Source of the DNA: Gimesia aquarii | GTDB taxonomy: Bacteria; Planctomycetota; Planctomycetia; Planctomycetales; Planctomycetaceae | Assembly: GCF_007748195.1 (NCBI RefSeq) | Contig: NZ_CP037920.1 | Location: 1,221,536-1,285,535 of the forward strand | Length of the DNA stretch: 64,000 bases | Direction: 5' to 3' | In this document: positions 5,452-11,140 of the stretch, one piece after another | Layout of the letters: the number at the start of each line of letters is the position of its first letter | Position numbering within the stretch: the stretch's first letter is position 1 | The notes under the pieces: generated by a model | Seen by the model: only the letters and a program-made list of their open reading frames with translations | Database searches by the model: none | Told to the model about the DNA's origin: nothing | Made by a program: the position numbers and the translations under genes

Positions 5452-6750
5452 ATGAGTGAGGTCACGAGACGTAGTTTTCTTCAAACCAGTGCTGGTGCTG
5501 TTGCGGCCACTTCATTACTGAATAATACAGCCCGGGCTGACATCAATGGGAAAATTCGTGTAGCTGTATTAGGAGTGAACGGCCGCGGTAGAACGCATAT
5601 CAAGGCTGTCGGCAATATTGAAGGTGCTGACGTTGTGTTGCTCTGTGATCCGGATAAACAAGTTCTCGAAAAACGTGCTGCCGAATTTGAGAAGAAGTAT
5701 GGTCGCAAGGTCGAAACTGAGACCGATATGCGTAAAGTATTTGACCGGGATGACATTGATGTTGTTACAGTAGCTACTCCAAATCACTGGCATTCATTGG
5801 CGACGATTTGGGCATGCCAGGCTGGAAAAGATGTTTATGTTGAAAAACCAGGTTCACACAATTTATTCGAAGGTCGCAAAATGATGGAAGCGGCTGATAA
5901 GTATAAACGCATTGTGCAACACGGCGTACAACTTCGCAGCCAACCTGCAATTCAGGAAGCAGTCGAGCATCTTCGCAAAGGGACCATTGGTAAAGTTTAT
6001 ATGGCTCGTGGTCTCGTCTTCCGCTGGCGTCCTTCAATCGGAAAAAAGCCTGTTGAAAAAGTACCCTCCTATCTCGATTGGAACCTTTGGCAGGGACCTG
6101 CTCAGGAAACTGACTTTTCACGGCGTCTGGTGCACTATAATTGGCACTGGACCTGGGATTACGGCAATGGTGACGTAGGCAACCAGGGGGTTCACGAGAC
6201 TGATATGTGCCTCTGGGGCTTGGATGTCAAACTACCTTCGCAAATTAACGCCATGGGAGGTAAGTTCCTGTGGGATGACGATAAAGAGACACCGGAACTT
6301 CTTACAACGAACTATTTTTATCCTGAAGAAAACAGAATGATTCAGTTTGAAGTACGTCCCTGGAATACGAATACCGAAGACGGAGCGACTGTGGGTAACA
6401 TATTCTACGGATCGGAGGGTTATATGGTTGTTAAGGGATATAAATCTTATGAGACCTATCTGGGACGAAAACGGGAACCCGGGCCGAAGAAGAGCGGAGC
6501 TGATCCCGTCGAAGCACACTTCACCAATTTCCTGGATGCTGTCCGATCACGGAAGGCTGAGACTTTGAATGGCCCTGTCGAAACAGCTCATACCAGTTCC
6601 GGCCTTGCTCATTTGGGTAACATTGCCTTTCGTCTGGGACGCCAACTGAACTTCGATCCCAAAACAGAACAGTTTGTAGACGATCCAGAAGCAGACAAAT
6701 ATTTAACTCGCCAGTATCGTAAGCCATTCGTGGTTCCCAACGAAGTCTAA
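5452..6750 (+). CDS. Tat-exported Gfo/Idh/MocA oxidoreductase
   Basis: The 432-residue protein starts with a Tat signal (TRRSFLQTSAGAVAATS) with a likely cleavage after ARA near residue 29. A Rossmann motif VAVLGVNGRGRTH and an EKPGSHN catalytic-lysine segment follow, then the substrate-binding domain with the WHWTWDYGNGDVGNQGVHE stretch typical of the exported planctomycete Gfo group. This group probably acts on sugars in the periplasm with a tightly held nicotinamide cofactor; the substrate is unknown. AAAGGATG precedes the ATG. A terminator follows, and the gene appears to stand alone. Confidence 0.92.
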   Translation: MSEVTRRSFLQTSAGAVAATSLLNNTARADINGKIRVAVLGVNGRGRTHIKAVGNIEGADVVLLCDPDKQVLEKRAAEFEKKYGRKVETETDMRKVFDRDDIDVVTVATPNHWHSLATIWACQAGKDVYVEKPGSHNLFEGRKMMEAADKYKRIVQHGVQLRSQPAIQEAVEHLRKGTIGKVYMARGLVFRWRPSIGKKPVEKVPSYLDWNLWQGPAQETDFSRRLVHYNWHWTWDYGNGDVGNQGVHETDMCLWGLDVKLPSQINAMGGKFLWDDDKETPELLTTNYFYPEENRMIQFEVRPWNTNTEDGATVGNIFYGSEGYMVVKGYKSYETYLGRKREPGPKKSGADPVEAHFTNFLDAVRSRKAETLNGPVETAHTSSGLAHLGNIAFRLGRQLNFDPKTEQFVDDPEADKYLTRQYRKPFVVPNEV

Positions 6751-6837: not shown

Positions 6838-6872
6838 AAAAAAAGGCTGACCCACAGTGATGCAGGTCAGCC
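6838..6872 (-). terminator. Intrinsic terminator of the minus-strand RNA
   Basis: On the minus strand GGCTGACC and GGTCAGCC pair perfectly across a 12-nt loop and are followed by seven Ts. The only thing it can terminate is transcription coming from the gene-free stretch upstream (6873-7332) or read-through from ppk. Confidence 0.85.
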
Positions 6873-6944
6873 CCGTTCAAATTTCGTTAGGATCGAGGTG
6901 ATCCTCACGAGTGGTGGTTGTCTATGACAACCCGCCAGAAGTCG

Positions 6945-7028
6945 CTAAGTACAACCACCTTTCTGGCTACAACAATAACTGTCCACTCAATCACCTCCTT
7001 TTCTTAGATAAACTCCCTGTTTCATCAT
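6945..7028 (-). other. Two abutting 13-codon ORFs inside the RNA
   Basis: ORF1 (7028-6987) starts ATGATG and encodes MMKQGVYLRKGGD. ORF2 (6986-6945) starts at the GTG immediately after ORF1's stop (TGAGTG) and encodes a Cys-rich peptide, VDSYCCSQKGGCT with the GTG read as Met. The strong AAGGAGG lies inside the end of ORF1, about 7 bp before the GTG of ORF2. ORF2 runs through the 5' arm of an inner hairpin, as leader peptides do in attenuators. Their translation is unproven. Confidence 0.3.
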
Positions 7029-7332
7029 CGGTTTGTAGCTCCAATCTTGAATACAGGCTCTAGTCCTATCGCACTGCGTGGGTGCGATACATGATCTATC
7101 CCTATTTTTGCAAATCCCAAATTTGAGGCAATACCTTTTTAGTTCGAATCAGCTGAAATCCAGAGGGCCAGCAATAATCAAAAATCGTAACTTATTATAG
7201 AGATGTAGGATAAGACTTTAGTGAGTCCCTCAATTTTTATAGGCAATCGTAGTGTTTTCTATCAGGTTTCAGATTTGACCTGATTTCTTGTGTACTGAAA
7301 TTGTCATAAATAAAACATCGTGTATTCAGTGA

Positions 7333-9450
7333 CTACTGATCCTCGGGAGCCATATGCGGTTCGAAAATGGTACGCCCGGCTTTTTCTGCCTGCTTCACGG
7401 CTGAAACCGCTTCTTCGTATAAAGCCTGCTGACAGCGAACACGTTTTTTATCTTTGCCTGGACTGATGCGCTCGTAAACTCCATCCCCATTTAATACCCG
7501 ACCTTTGGCATTGTCGGCAAAATAGCTGTTCAAAATTTTCACCAACTTTCGCTGACTTTTTTCTTCCTCAATCGGCACCAGCAATTCGACCCGCCGATCT
7601 AAATTCCGGGGCATCCAATCGGCACTGGAGATCAAAACTCGTTCATCACCACCATGATAAAAATACAGAATCCGGGCATGCTCCAGGAACCGATCGATAA
7701 TACTGACGACTTCAATATTTTTGCTTAACTTGGAGACACCAGGGCGCAGACAGCAGATCCCACGAATATTTAGTTTGATTTTAACTCCGGCTTCTGAAGC
7801 TTGATACAATGCATCAATAATTTCTGGATCCACTAGTGAATTGACTTTTGCTATAATTCTTGCCTTCTGCCCTTGTTTCTTGCGTTCTGTTTCATGGTGG
7901 ATCAGGTCAAGAATTTTGTCTCTCAAACCGATGGGGGCTGCTTCCAGTTTTTGATATTTCTGTGGCAGAGAATATCCTGTGATCGAATTAAAGAAGTTAA
8001 TTGCATCAGATGCTAAAACTTCGTCACAGGTGAAGTAACTGATATCGCTATAAATTTTCGCAGTCGCATCGTTATAGTTGCCTGTGCCAAAATGGATATA
8101 ACGCTGAATTCCTTGCGGTTCACGGCGGATAATGCAGCAGATCTTCGCATGTGTTTTAAGTCCTTTTACACCATAAATGACTTGTACTCCGGCATGCTCC
8201 AGATTCTTGGCCCATTCAATATTTCGTGCTTCATCAAAACGGGCTTTTAGTTCAACAATAGCGGTCACATGTTTGCCTTGCTCAGCCGCACGTATCAATG
8301 CCGCTACGATCGGGCTGTGTTTACTGGTTCGATAGAGAATCTGTTTGATGGCCAACACATCTGGATCAACGGCAGCTTCTTCAATCAGTCTGACGATTGG
8401 CTCAAAGCTTTCGTAAGGATGGCATAGCAAGATATCCTGCCGTGAAATATTCTTGAACATGCTGAGACGAGGGTTCACATCTGGAGAAGGTTGAGGTGGC
8501 CAGGCTTGATCTTTCTGTGCCTCAAATCCGGAGATGTCCGTCAGTCTCATAAAAGCGGTCAGATCCAGGGGCCCGGGGATGCGGTAGACATTCTCATCAA
8601 GTACATTCAAACCCCGTTCCAAAAATTCCAGAGTCTCTACAGAAACGTTTTCAGCGACTTCCAGACGGATACAATCTCCCTGCTTTCGCTGATCCAGCAT
8701 ATCTTCCATCTGGTGTAACAGATCAGAGGCAAATTCATCTTGCAGGCTGACATCTGCGTTTTTTGTGACACGAAAGGGAATACTCTCCAGAACGTGCTCA
8801 CCCTGAAAATACTGTTCAATAAATAGACTGACTGCGTCTTCCATAGGTAAATATTGATATCCACCCTCGGAAGGGAGCGTAATAAATCGAAACTCTGTTC
8901 TACCAAAAGGAATGATGGCAAATCGATTTTGCTTGTTCTCACTATTTTCAGCCGGTGCCAGGCGAACAATAATATTCAGCGTATGATTTACCAGATAAGG
9001 AAACTCCATTTCTGGCGTCACTGCCATAGGGGTGAGCACGGGATAAATTTCATCTCGAAAGACATGTTCGACAATTCGCCGTTGTGAGTCAGTTAATTCC
9101 AGAGGATTAGCTCTTTGAAATCCGGCTTCCGAGAGAGGTGGCTCAATTTCATTCAATAAACATTGATACTGCTCAACCATCATGTGATGAGCGCGTAAAC
9201 TGATCGCTTTCAGAGTTTCACTGGGAGTCATTCCTGATGGATCAGGAGTTGTGTTACCACTTGCCTGCAATAAATGGAGACCACCCACGCGGACCATAAA
9301 AAATTCGTCGAGGTTCGAACTGGTAATCGCCAGAAATTTTAACCGTTCCAGTAAAGGGATTGAGGGATCATGGGCTTCATCCAGCACTCGTTGATTAAAT
9401 TCAAGCCAGCTTAATTCCCGGTTAAGATATTTTGATGCTTTAGAAGCCAT
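7333..9450 (-). CDS. ppk1: Polyphosphate kinase 1
   Basis: The 705-residue enzyme, of normal family length, makes inorganic polyphosphate reversibly from ATP. The N-terminal domain begins YLNRELSWLEFNQRVLDEA. The body contains AIKQILYRTS, the GLKTHAKICC segment with the histidine that is autophosphorylated in the family, FGTGNYND, and the second conserved His region EHARILYFYHGGDE followed by SSADWMPRNLDRRVE. The ATG at 9450 has AGG at a suitable distance; a TTG two codons upstream is less likely. It is last in a minus-strand series after the ROK kinase and Ppx genes, with a 70-bp gap from ppx. Confidence 0.96.
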   Translation of the reverse strand: MASKASKYLNRELSWLEFNQRVLDEAHDPSIPLLERLKFLAITSSNLDEFFMVRVGGLHLLQASGNTTPDPSGMTPSETLKAISLRAHHMMVEQYQCLLNEIEPPLSEAGFQRANPLELTDSQRRIVEHVFRDEIYPVLTPMAVTPEMEFPYLVNHTLNIIVRLAPAENSENKQNRFAIIPFGRTEFRFITLPSEGGYQYLPMEDAVSLFIEQYFQGEHVLESIPFRVTKNADVSLQDEFASDLLHQMEDMLDQRKQGDCIRLEVAENVSVETLEFLERGLNVLDENVYRIPGPLDLTAFMRLTDISGFEAQKDQAWPPQPSPDVNPRLSMFKNISRQDILLCHPYESFEPIVRLIEEAAVDPDVLAIKQILYRTSKHSPIVAALIRAAEQGKHVTAIVELKARFDEARNIEWAKNLEHAGVQVIYGVKGLKTHAKICCIIRREPQGIQRYIHFGTGNYNDATAKIYSDISYFTCDEVLASDAINFFNSITGYSLPQKYQKLEAAPIGLRDKILDLIHHETERKKQGQKARIIAKVNSLVDPEIIDALYQASEAGVKIKLNIRGICCLRPGVSKLSKNIEVVSIIDRFLEHARILYFYHGGDERVLISSADWMPRNLDRRVELLVPIEEEKSQRKLVKILNSYFADNAKGRVLNGDGVYERISPGKDKKRVRCQQALYEEAVSAVKQAEKAGRTIFEPHMAPEDQ

Positions 9451-9520
9451 GTGCAACCTGTTGAAAAATCGAGTTGTAGATTTGCATTTTACGACTAAGC
9501 AGCCGCGAGAAACATTTCGT

Positions 9521-11140
9521 CTATTTCTTCTTCCTCAAGTGGACTTTGAGTCCAAAAACTTCTTCAAATAATGGGCCTTTTTCCACTAATGCAATTTGTT
9601 CCAGAGAAACATCTTCAACGTGCGGTATAGAAATAATCAACTGTCCTTCTACGATTTCACATTCAATTTCCTGGACGCGTTGACTATAAGAGTAATCCAG
9701 TGCGTCGGCTACCCGCAAGATTGCAGCCATTTTTGCGATCGCTATCCGGCTGACTCGATCTAAGGTCGAATATCCTGGATGAGTCGCTTTAGGGGAAGCA
9801 CGCCGATGATAGCGGGCGATTAATGAGACGAGTAACAAATCTGACTTTCCCAAACCAAACAAATTACCGTTACTGATTAAATACATCGAGTGTTTATGGT
9901 AGCCACGTTGGTCTACATACATTCCAATCTCATGCAGTAGAGCGGCTGTATAAAGTAAAAGCCGATTTCTCAAATCAAGCTTATGCTCATTCTGTAGTGA
10001 TTGGAAAAGAGTATCAGCCAAAAAAGCAACGTGTCGGGCATGTGTTTCATCAAAGTCAAAGCGTTTGCCAAAGTCTACCGTCGAACGAATCACTTGTCTG
10101 TTAAATTCGTCCGACCAGTTATTTTGATCTGCCATTTCTTTCAAAAGGCCATCACGAAAATTGGCTTTTGTTACATAAATATGTTTCAGTTGATAAGCTT
10201 CTGCCAGTTTTGTATATGCTAATAACGCAGGTCCCAGTGTTTCTGCATCTGTAAATGAAAGATGGTAATTTTGAACCAACTGGTCTTCATCTTTTTGTAA
10301 AATTTTGTTTGTGAACTTACTTAGTTCAGAAACTTTGAGCCGATCTAGTTCATCGGCTGAATCATTGGGGTCAGGAATTTCGTCTTCCGGCCGTAATTGC
10401 GATAGTGCAAATCGAACATCACCGCCAAGCACCACGAGTTTGATCGATTTATCACCAGGGACTTCATGAACAATTTGTTCGATCACACGCTCAATCTGAT
10501 TCTCCATAATCGTACGTTCTTTGGACAAGGGTACTCGATACCCTTTCAACATCTCGCGCAGTCGTAGTGCTCCGAGTCGATAATTTTTGGAGAACAGTAC
10601 GTCTCCATGTTGGACCAGTAAAAGTTCGGTTGTTCCTCCCCCGATTTCGGTAACGATGGTTCGCGCTTCGTCCAAATTAGGTTTTGCGGTCAGGTAAGGT
10701 CGAATTCCCTGGTAGGTAATCCGGTTCACTTCAGCTTCATCCAGAGGTGCGACTTCAAAACCGGTCGCGATAAAAATTCGGTCGGTAAATGCAAGTCGAT
10801 TGTCGGCTTCCCGAACGGCACTCGTAGCGACAACACGAATTTGATCATCGCGAGTAATCTGATATTCGTCCAATCTGCGTCGATAGCTCTTGAGAATTCG
10901 TACACACTCTTCCATTGTCGATTTTTGAATATTACGAGTCTGAAAGGTGTCTTCACCCAGTGTTACTGCTTGAGAAAGCCTCTCCAGTGTGTTGACGTTG
11001 CCGTCTTCTTTAATTTCTGCGATTGCCATGCGAATGGCACCCGTACCGATATCGATCACAGCAATCAATCGATTGGGAGCCGAATCTGGACGATTAGAAC
11101 CGGCAGTCGTTTCGGCGAGTGGTGAATCTTTTGTGTTCAT
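9521..11140 (-). CDS. ppx: Ppx/GppA phosphatase with C-terminal HD domain
   Basis: The 539-residue protein has an actin-like N-terminal part (AVIDIGTGAIRMAIAEI, TEIGGGTTELLLV) typical of exopolyphosphatase/pppGpp phosphatase, and a C-terminal HD-type part (LLHEIGMYVDQRGYHKHS). It hydrolyses terminal phosphates of polyphosphate, and in some members converts pppGpp to ppGpp. The ATG overlaps the upstream ROK stop codon by 4 bp (ATGA), so the two are translationally coupled. With ppk1 just downstream, polyphosphate synthesis and breakdown are encoded together. Confidence 0.93.
   Translation of the reverse strand: MNTKDSPLAETTAGSNRPDSAPNRLIAVIDIGTGAIRMAIAEIKEDGNVNTLERLSQAVTLGEDTFQTRNIQKSTMEECVRILKSYRRRLDEYQITRDDQIRVVATSAVREADNRLAFTDRIFIATGFEVAPLDEAEVNRITYQGIRPYLTAKPNLDEARTIVTEIGGGTTELLLVQHGDVLFSKNYRLGALRLREMLKGYRVPLSKERTIMENQIERVIEQIVHEVPGDKSIKLVVLGGDVRFALSQLRPEDEIPDPNDSADELDRLKVSELSKFTNKILQKDEDQLVQNYHLSFTDAETLGPALLAYTKLAEAYQLKHIYVTKANFRDGLLKEMADQNNWSDEFNRQVIRSTVDFGKRFDFDETHARHVAFLADTLFQSLQNEHKLDLRNRLLLYTAALLHEIGMYVDQRGYHKHSMYLISNGNLFGLGKSDLLLVSLIARYHRRASPKATHPGYSTLDRVSRIAIAKMAAILRVADALDYSYSQRVQEIECEIVEGQLIISIPHVEDVSLEQIALVEKGPLFEEVFGLKVHLRKKK

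Follow-up and report, generated by a model that had tools for sequence, protein, structure and literature searches.

The DNA analysed here, referred to as the window, is a stretch of 64,000 nucleotides from the genome of Gimesia aquarii. At positions 7096-6838, on the minus strand, it contains an intergenic element, located between the genes for polyphosphate kinase 1 (ppk1, 7333-9456, minus strand) and for a GFO/IDH/MocA oxidoreductase (5452-6750, plus strand); the latter is the next gene downstream and is convergent with the element. Directly upstream, ppk1 and the gene for a Ppx/GppA phosphatase with an HD domain form a head-to-tail polyphosphate pair (7333-11140, minus strand). Among the loci compared, the element adjoins ppk1 only in those of the genus Gimesia.

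An earlier note, based on the letters of the window, had described this region as a candidate riboregulator, in which a Shine-Dalgarno sequence would be paired with a mimic of the 16S tail. All the coordinates it reported are exact when the minus strand is read, and every element is found at its place. The folding of the minus strand, proposed there as a check, was also performed: the putative transcript, 7096-6838, reaches -97.7 kcal/mol (z = -5.3), and none of 200 dinucleotide shuffles folded as well. The earlier description of a structured RNA related to the ribosome, closed by a terminator of its own and able to adopt foldings that exclude each other, was retained, whereas an ORF had been overlooked, and both hairpin I and the Shine-Dalgarno/mimic pairing turned out not to be general.

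Distribution among genomes

A DNA search identified one copy of the element per genome in all 17 members of the genus examined, and weak matches in two other planctomycetes. By using a covariance model built from the genus sequences, one full-length copy was found in 166 of 298 genomes of the class. The model was rebuilt on 60, and then on 65 sequences, before searching the phylum, where 177 of 394 genomes were positive at E <= 0.001, with one copy each and a single exception. In a control set of 96 genomes from another class, 4 matches were obtained at E <= 0.01, none of them below 0.002. Many genomes have no match, including those of some genera and families (e.g. g52, f7 and f9), as a result of either true loss or limited sensitivity.

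An independent exact pattern, combining the 16S-tail complement and the conserved loop described below, was searched in 84,980 species and produced 44 loci, 41 of which are titled Planctomycetota or one of its subgroups (Phycisphaerae, Planctomycetia, Gemmataceae and others). The remaining three are a MAG titled Cyanobacteria and two apparent chance matches. The RNA of the former (CYA N2_1, locus L181) is nearly identical to that of a Phycisphaerales locus (L193), and the MAG is probably misnamed or misbinned. As for the other two, L175 coincides with the beginning of a longer open frame, whereas the planctomycete architecture is lacking in L210, from an alphaproteobacterial MAG; both were discarded as homologues. 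In L210, a 22-codon ORF (starting VSHCHSVKGARNW) and a hairpin resembling a terminator come after a 16S-tail complement, and the locus could be an independent leader. Viral contigs gave no match to the pattern. Taken as a comparison of sequences, these results make it virtually certain that the RNA, with its ORF, exists and is conserved.

No relevant family match was obtained at the element in Rfam, at either gathering or relaxed thresholds. Housekeeping RNAs, such as tmRNA, 6S, SRP RNA or RNase P RNA, are likewise single-copy and phylum-wide, and the element might be a diverged member of one of these families; the lack of a match even at the relaxed threshold, and the presence in the genome of a separate tmRNA scoring above cut-off, the one of the four located in this way, make this barely credible. 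Identification with tmRNA (RF00023), which is similarly structured, occurs phylum-wide and also has a short ORF inside it, was rejected: the family model does not match the element, the ORF of the element has its own ribosome site, and the true tmRNA gene lies elsewhere. To our knowledge, only few RNAs are conserved throughout a phylum as one copy per genome, and tmRNA is the only one among them known to contain an internal ORF.

In the open-access literature searched, no description of the RNA was found; one may exist elsewhere. The Rhodopirellula-1 motif, probably cis-regulatory and shared with Proteobacteria (PMC2864571), was judged, from its description, to be a different RNA. The RNA, being unannotated, without an Rfam family and without a description in the literature searched, appears to be previously undescribed.

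Gene boundaries and neighbours

On the minus strand, alignment of the genus members shows two conserved promoter-like boxes, TTGCC (7131-7127) and CAAAAATA (7110-7103), which would place the start of transcription at about 7096. The pair does not correspond to a consensus sigma-70 promoter. In the class, a TTGYC box occurs within the 90 nt upstream in 62 of 100 homologues (15.7 expected), and 49 of the boxes are located at 65-74 nt upstream. The TATAAT at 7199-7194, listed in the earlier note, is present at that position, but only 2 of the 17 genus members retain it, and the conserved boxes are nearer to the RNA. At the other end, the unit is closed, as already proposed, by an intrinsic terminator (6872-6838, minus strand); downstream terminators were found in 72 of 98 homologues, compared to 3 of 98 shuffled sequences.

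In a set of 71 representatives, the gene that follows the RNA has the same orientation in 47 and the opposite one in 22, mostly with no shared family. No neighbour gene conserved across families was found. The possibility that the RNA is a leader-peptide attenuator, or a translational leader, of a downstream gene has to be considered here, because all the parts of an attenuator are present (ribosome site, short ORF, competing hairpins, terminator), and because a gene of the DAHP synthase family (F0) is located 3' of the RNA in 11 loci of the class. A co-transcribed downstream gene to be controlled is nevertheless missing in the window, where the next gene is convergent; considering also the mixed orientations, the terminators following the RNA in most loci and the lack of a conserved neighbour, a leader is very unlikely, and the switchable leader proposed earlier does not hold for the window.

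The DAHP synthase genes are found on the same strand, at 28 to about 630 nt (loci L096, L104, L110, L112, L114, L116, L117, L118, L128, L130 and L132), and some of the peptides encoded at these loci contain Trp (NQRWLL, NQRWLP); the association is probably local synteny, regulation of these genes being a less likely reading. The absence of a neighbour conserved across families argues for the RNA being a gene of its own, rather than a leader. This stand-alone gene would be about 260 nt long, and is presumably transcribed from its own promoter-like box up to its own terminator.

Ribosome site, short ORF and covarying helices

The ribosome site is an extended Shine-Dalgarno sequence, GAAAAGGAGGTGATTG (6987-7002, minus strand), with a 7-nt spacer following GGAGG, and includes the core 11-mer AAGGAGGTGAT (7000-6990), which occurs 5 times in the whole 7.4-Mb genome. 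Complementarity was evaluated against the 16S tail, which we take to have its universal sequence in this genome as well. The copy in the window may pair with 13 nt of the tail, including G-U (12 Watson-Crick pairs), and in 36 of 71 representatives 15 contiguous nucleotides are pairable, G-U being counted. As the models used to collect the homologues centred on GGAGGTG, conservation of the core of the site is in part ascertained. Two GGATCACCTCCTT sites in the genome were checked as possible rRNA and found not to be rRNA. Another long 16S-tail complement (GAAAGGAGGTGATCC) was noticed at L227 (G000:C1, about 971,496) and L228 (about 4,036,104). These loci are copies of one 1.43-kb stretch, with 97.5% identity, and both also carry a minus-strand cobalamin riboswitch on the same strand as the complement.

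The earlier statement that no protein-coding gene explains the region was not confirmed. Directly after the extended Shine-Dalgarno, a 13-codon ORF is present at 6986-6945 (GTG GAC AGT TAT TGT TGT AGC CAG AAA GGT GGT TGT ACT TAG), potentially encoding VDSYCCSQKGGCT, with the initial V read as M. Its start and stop are similarly placed in 100 of 100 homologues of the class, and the same layout was found outside the class. In these 100 homologues, the start codon (80 GTG, 18 TTG, 2 ATG) is located 6-9 nt after GGAGG (7 nt in 90 of them), the length ranges between 10 and 18 codons, and the stop codon (TAG 36, TGA 36, TAA 28), measured from its first base, precedes the conserved CNGRCGGG loop by 6-13 nt, with 9 nt in 52 cases. 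All the 71 dereplicated sequences have the first in-frame stop within this pre-loop interval, compared to 3 and 0 for frames +1 and +2, respectively, and to 7.8% of shuffles.

The peptides strongly diverge (VEYVCCNSQRGGSA, VCSDNQRRLA, VKNCDCTRGLRR), and fall into types ending in ...QRGGxA, NQRRLA or CDCT(R/K)GL(R/H)x. An Arg or Lys is found at position -5 from the stop in 65 of 90 unique ORFs of the class, and in 62 of 75 from a second set, mostly outside the class; it is encoded by CGA, CGG, AGA, AGG, AAA or AAG, and is usually followed by Gly at -4. The use of several codons points to some selection also on the peptide, or on the nascent chain, and the peptide itself, with its conserved Arg/Lys-Gly, could be the product. 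In such a case, the RNA would be a small mRNA, in the style of type I toxin mRNAs or of microprotein genes, and its structure would only tune translation and stability. The constancy of start, stop and frame in all the 100 class loci agrees with this reading, as does the residue at -5. The pairings persist despite the divergence of the peptides, however, and the conserved Gly codons are in part an arm of a helix (helix A, see below). In addition, the peptides (10-18 residues) are, by inspection, polar and contain Cys, Arg and Gly, with no hydrophobic stretch of the kind found in the membrane peptides of type I toxins, and have no match in NCBIfam. On the whole, a peptide as sole product is rather improbable.

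The ability of the RNA to form specific helices was analyzed by a swap test, in which each segment is paired with its own partner and with partners from other sequences, by using the 71 representatives; the resulting statistics ignore kinship. Both-side changes were also counted in alignments, two of which (A4 and A6) were partly fitted to models already holding some of the tested helices. The search for compensatory changes with a covariance model, suggested earlier, revealed covariation for several helices, both in the class and in the phylum. At the phylum level, all 27 modelled pairs show both-side changes, in 451 cells compared to 130 after shuffling, and the covariation score is 0.61, compared to 0.17. 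Segment pairs for which no helix is proposed were not significant in swap tests.

At the 5' end, hairpin P0 (TATCGCAC/GTGCGATA, 7089-7067, minus strand) recurs in homologues, with compensatory variants. It is followed by a domain (7057-7016) in which P1 (CCTGT/ACAGG) encloses P2 (ATTGG, 7045-7041, with CCGAT, 7031-7027); all four pairs of P1 and all five of P2 show both-side changes in the class alignment, which leans towards these helices. The loop of P2, GCTACAA (7039-7033), is complementary to TTGTAGC within the ORF (6972-6966), and may form a pseudoknot with it. Own partners perform better than swapped ones when the test is restricted to the loop (permutation p = 5e-5), and are not significantly better when the wider 5' domain is used. 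Compensatory variants include GCTACA/TGTAGC, GCTGGTA/TACCAGC, CCTGGC/GCCAGG and GTTGGC/GCCAAC.

The end of the ORF takes part in helix A, in which GGTGGTTGT (6959-6951, codons GGT GGT TGT) is paired with ACAACCACC (6921-6913), containing CCACC. This is the 9-bp competing pairing of the earlier note, and it is upheld by the swap test (p = 3e-7) and by compensatory types in class and phylum. Three short segments may form two alternative hairpins (6945-6916): B, in which s1 (6945-6941) is paired with s2 (6931-6927), and II, in which s2 (6932-6926, GGTTGTC) is paired with s3 (6922-6916, GACAACC). Both covary (swap tests: p = 3e-9 for B and 5e-9 for II), and pair counts also favour hairpin II, which had been proposed before. 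Since they share s2, B and II exclude each other, as expected of an attenuator; helix A is compatible with B and overlaps II. Pairing of the ORF end with s1 gave a weak signal (p = 0.002). The class alignment shows both-side changes at 4 of 5 pairs of B and at 3 of 6 of A.

The conserved loop CTGGCGGG (CNGRCGGG, 6938-6931), whose motif is kept across the phylum, begins 9 nt downstream of the T of the TAG stop. It includes a stretch complementary to CCCGUC, the universal sequence of the 16S decoding region; the match could be due to chance and is given no weight here. Hairpin I (GCCAGAA, 6967-6961, with TTCTGGC, 6940-6934) is genus-specific, its central pair being formed in 15 of 60 class sequences.

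Hairpin III (TCGT-GA-GGATC-ACCTC-GATCC-TA-ACGA, 6910-6884) shows both-side changes at every pair in the class alignment, with covariation at all five inner pairs, and folds better than shuffles (p = 9e-8). Its apical part contains the 16S-tail mimic GGATCACCTC, with ATCACCTC at 6902-6895, which would be able to pair with the Shine-Dalgarno instead. The mimic is found, as GGATCACC, in many members of the class, and is absent outside it, by inspection. In the genus of the window, the predicted fold contains the Shine-Dalgarno/mimic pairing together with hairpins I and II, and not A and B; the pairing, the central claim of the earlier note, was thus recovered at this level, but at class level it shows no covariation (swap p = 0.18), the longest helix being 7.27 with own partners, 7.06 with swapped ones and 6.28 after shuffling. 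Pairing of the Shine-Dalgarno with the mimic of hairpin III is regarded as a predicted, genus-level extra layer.

The 16S-tail complement, up to 15 nt long, and the mimic, present in many class members, might also suggest a decoy acting in trans, by capturing 30S subunits through the former or by binding messages through the latter. A pure decoy would require neither a kept ORF nor a conserved placement of its stop; considering also that genomes beyond the class have not kept the mimic, and that the pairing with it does not covary, such a function is quite unlikely.

A possible translation-operated switch

The arrangement of these elements is best accommodated by an RNA that would change its fold when its own tiny ORF is translated, similar to an attenuator with no downstream gene; on balance, this explanation is probable. 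Among the options originally listed (switchable leader, trans-acting decoy, self-regulating small mRNA), the last comes nearest to it. On the grounds of the gene, the ORF signals and the helices, all established by comparison, the following course, from transcription and translation to switching, is proposed. A structured transcript of about 260 nt would carry an embedded ORF of 10-18 codons, with a ribosome site complementary to nearly as much of the 16S 3' tail as is possible, and a start codon that is usually the weaker GTG or TTG. In the absence of a ribosome, the 5' loop would be held on the ORF by the pseudoknot, and the ORF end on CCACC by helix A, while s1 and s2 would close hairpin B, displaying CNGRCGGG in its loop. 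A translating ribosome would break both the pseudoknot and helix A; once at the stop codon, it would cover s1, with the conserved loop at its edge, and leave s2 free to pair with s3 in hairpin II. The fold would thereby report whether the ORF is being translated, and the output would be the RNA itself, or a partner reading it.

The two states were simulated by folding 68 sequences with specific sites blocked. With the start site blocked, helix A was formed in 53 and B in 50 of them. With the stop region blocked, hairpin II was formed in 48, compared to 25 in free folding; as this setting rules out A and B from the outset, only the rise of II is informative. These results suggest that A, B and the pseudoknot would be adopted by the untranslated RNA, and that pairing of s2 with s3 would be driven by a ribosome located at the stop codon. 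The fold predicted for the genus of the window, which has II but neither A nor B, speaks against this scheme.

Partial similarities were found with known systems. Attenuators of the trp type also have a short ORF with its ribosome site, strands with two partners, an intrinsic terminator and a stop codon just before the switching strand; the RNA described here differs in being stand-alone, with no conserved downstream gene, in being kept phylum-wide and in having no run of regulatory codons. The leader peptide peTrpL of Sinorhizobium, encoded by a transcription attenuator, acts in trans (PMC7298713), indicating that a short leader peptide can act away from its operon; here there is no operon. 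In toxin mRNAs of the AapA/hok type, controlled by antisense antitoxins, the Shine-Dalgarno can be masked by anti-Shine-Dalgarno stretches and metastable folds (PMC6733600). These are also small mRNAs with a maskable Shine-Dalgarno and coding bases constrained by RNA structure, and the genus-level pairing with the mimic resembles the self-sequestration of AapA-type mRNAs, whereas the planctomycete peptide is shorter and polar, and is specified by a gene present phylum-wide in single copy. In Staphylococcus aureus, extended Shine-Dalgarno sites with small leader ORFs started by GUG were described, among them rbfL, an arginine-sensing leader (PMC13009471). Long complementarity to the 16S tail, tiny ORFs and GUG starts are shared features, but rbfL and the start site of its target overlap, and no structured stand-alone RNA is involved.

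As to what is monitored, sensing of ribosome supply, or of termination of the nascent peptide, is the likeliest guess. Tentatively, and with less confidence than the switch itself, the RNA may be seen as a phylum-wide orphan switch operated by ribosomes, which would report ribosome supply, or termination on its ORF, and act in trans in the global control of translation. If real in cells, it would offer a compact and testable system to study how translating a dozen codons can determine the folding of an RNA. The phylum concerned is unusual in its cell biology, and very little is known of how it uses RNA for regulation; a covariance-based annotation is ready for hundreds of its genomes.
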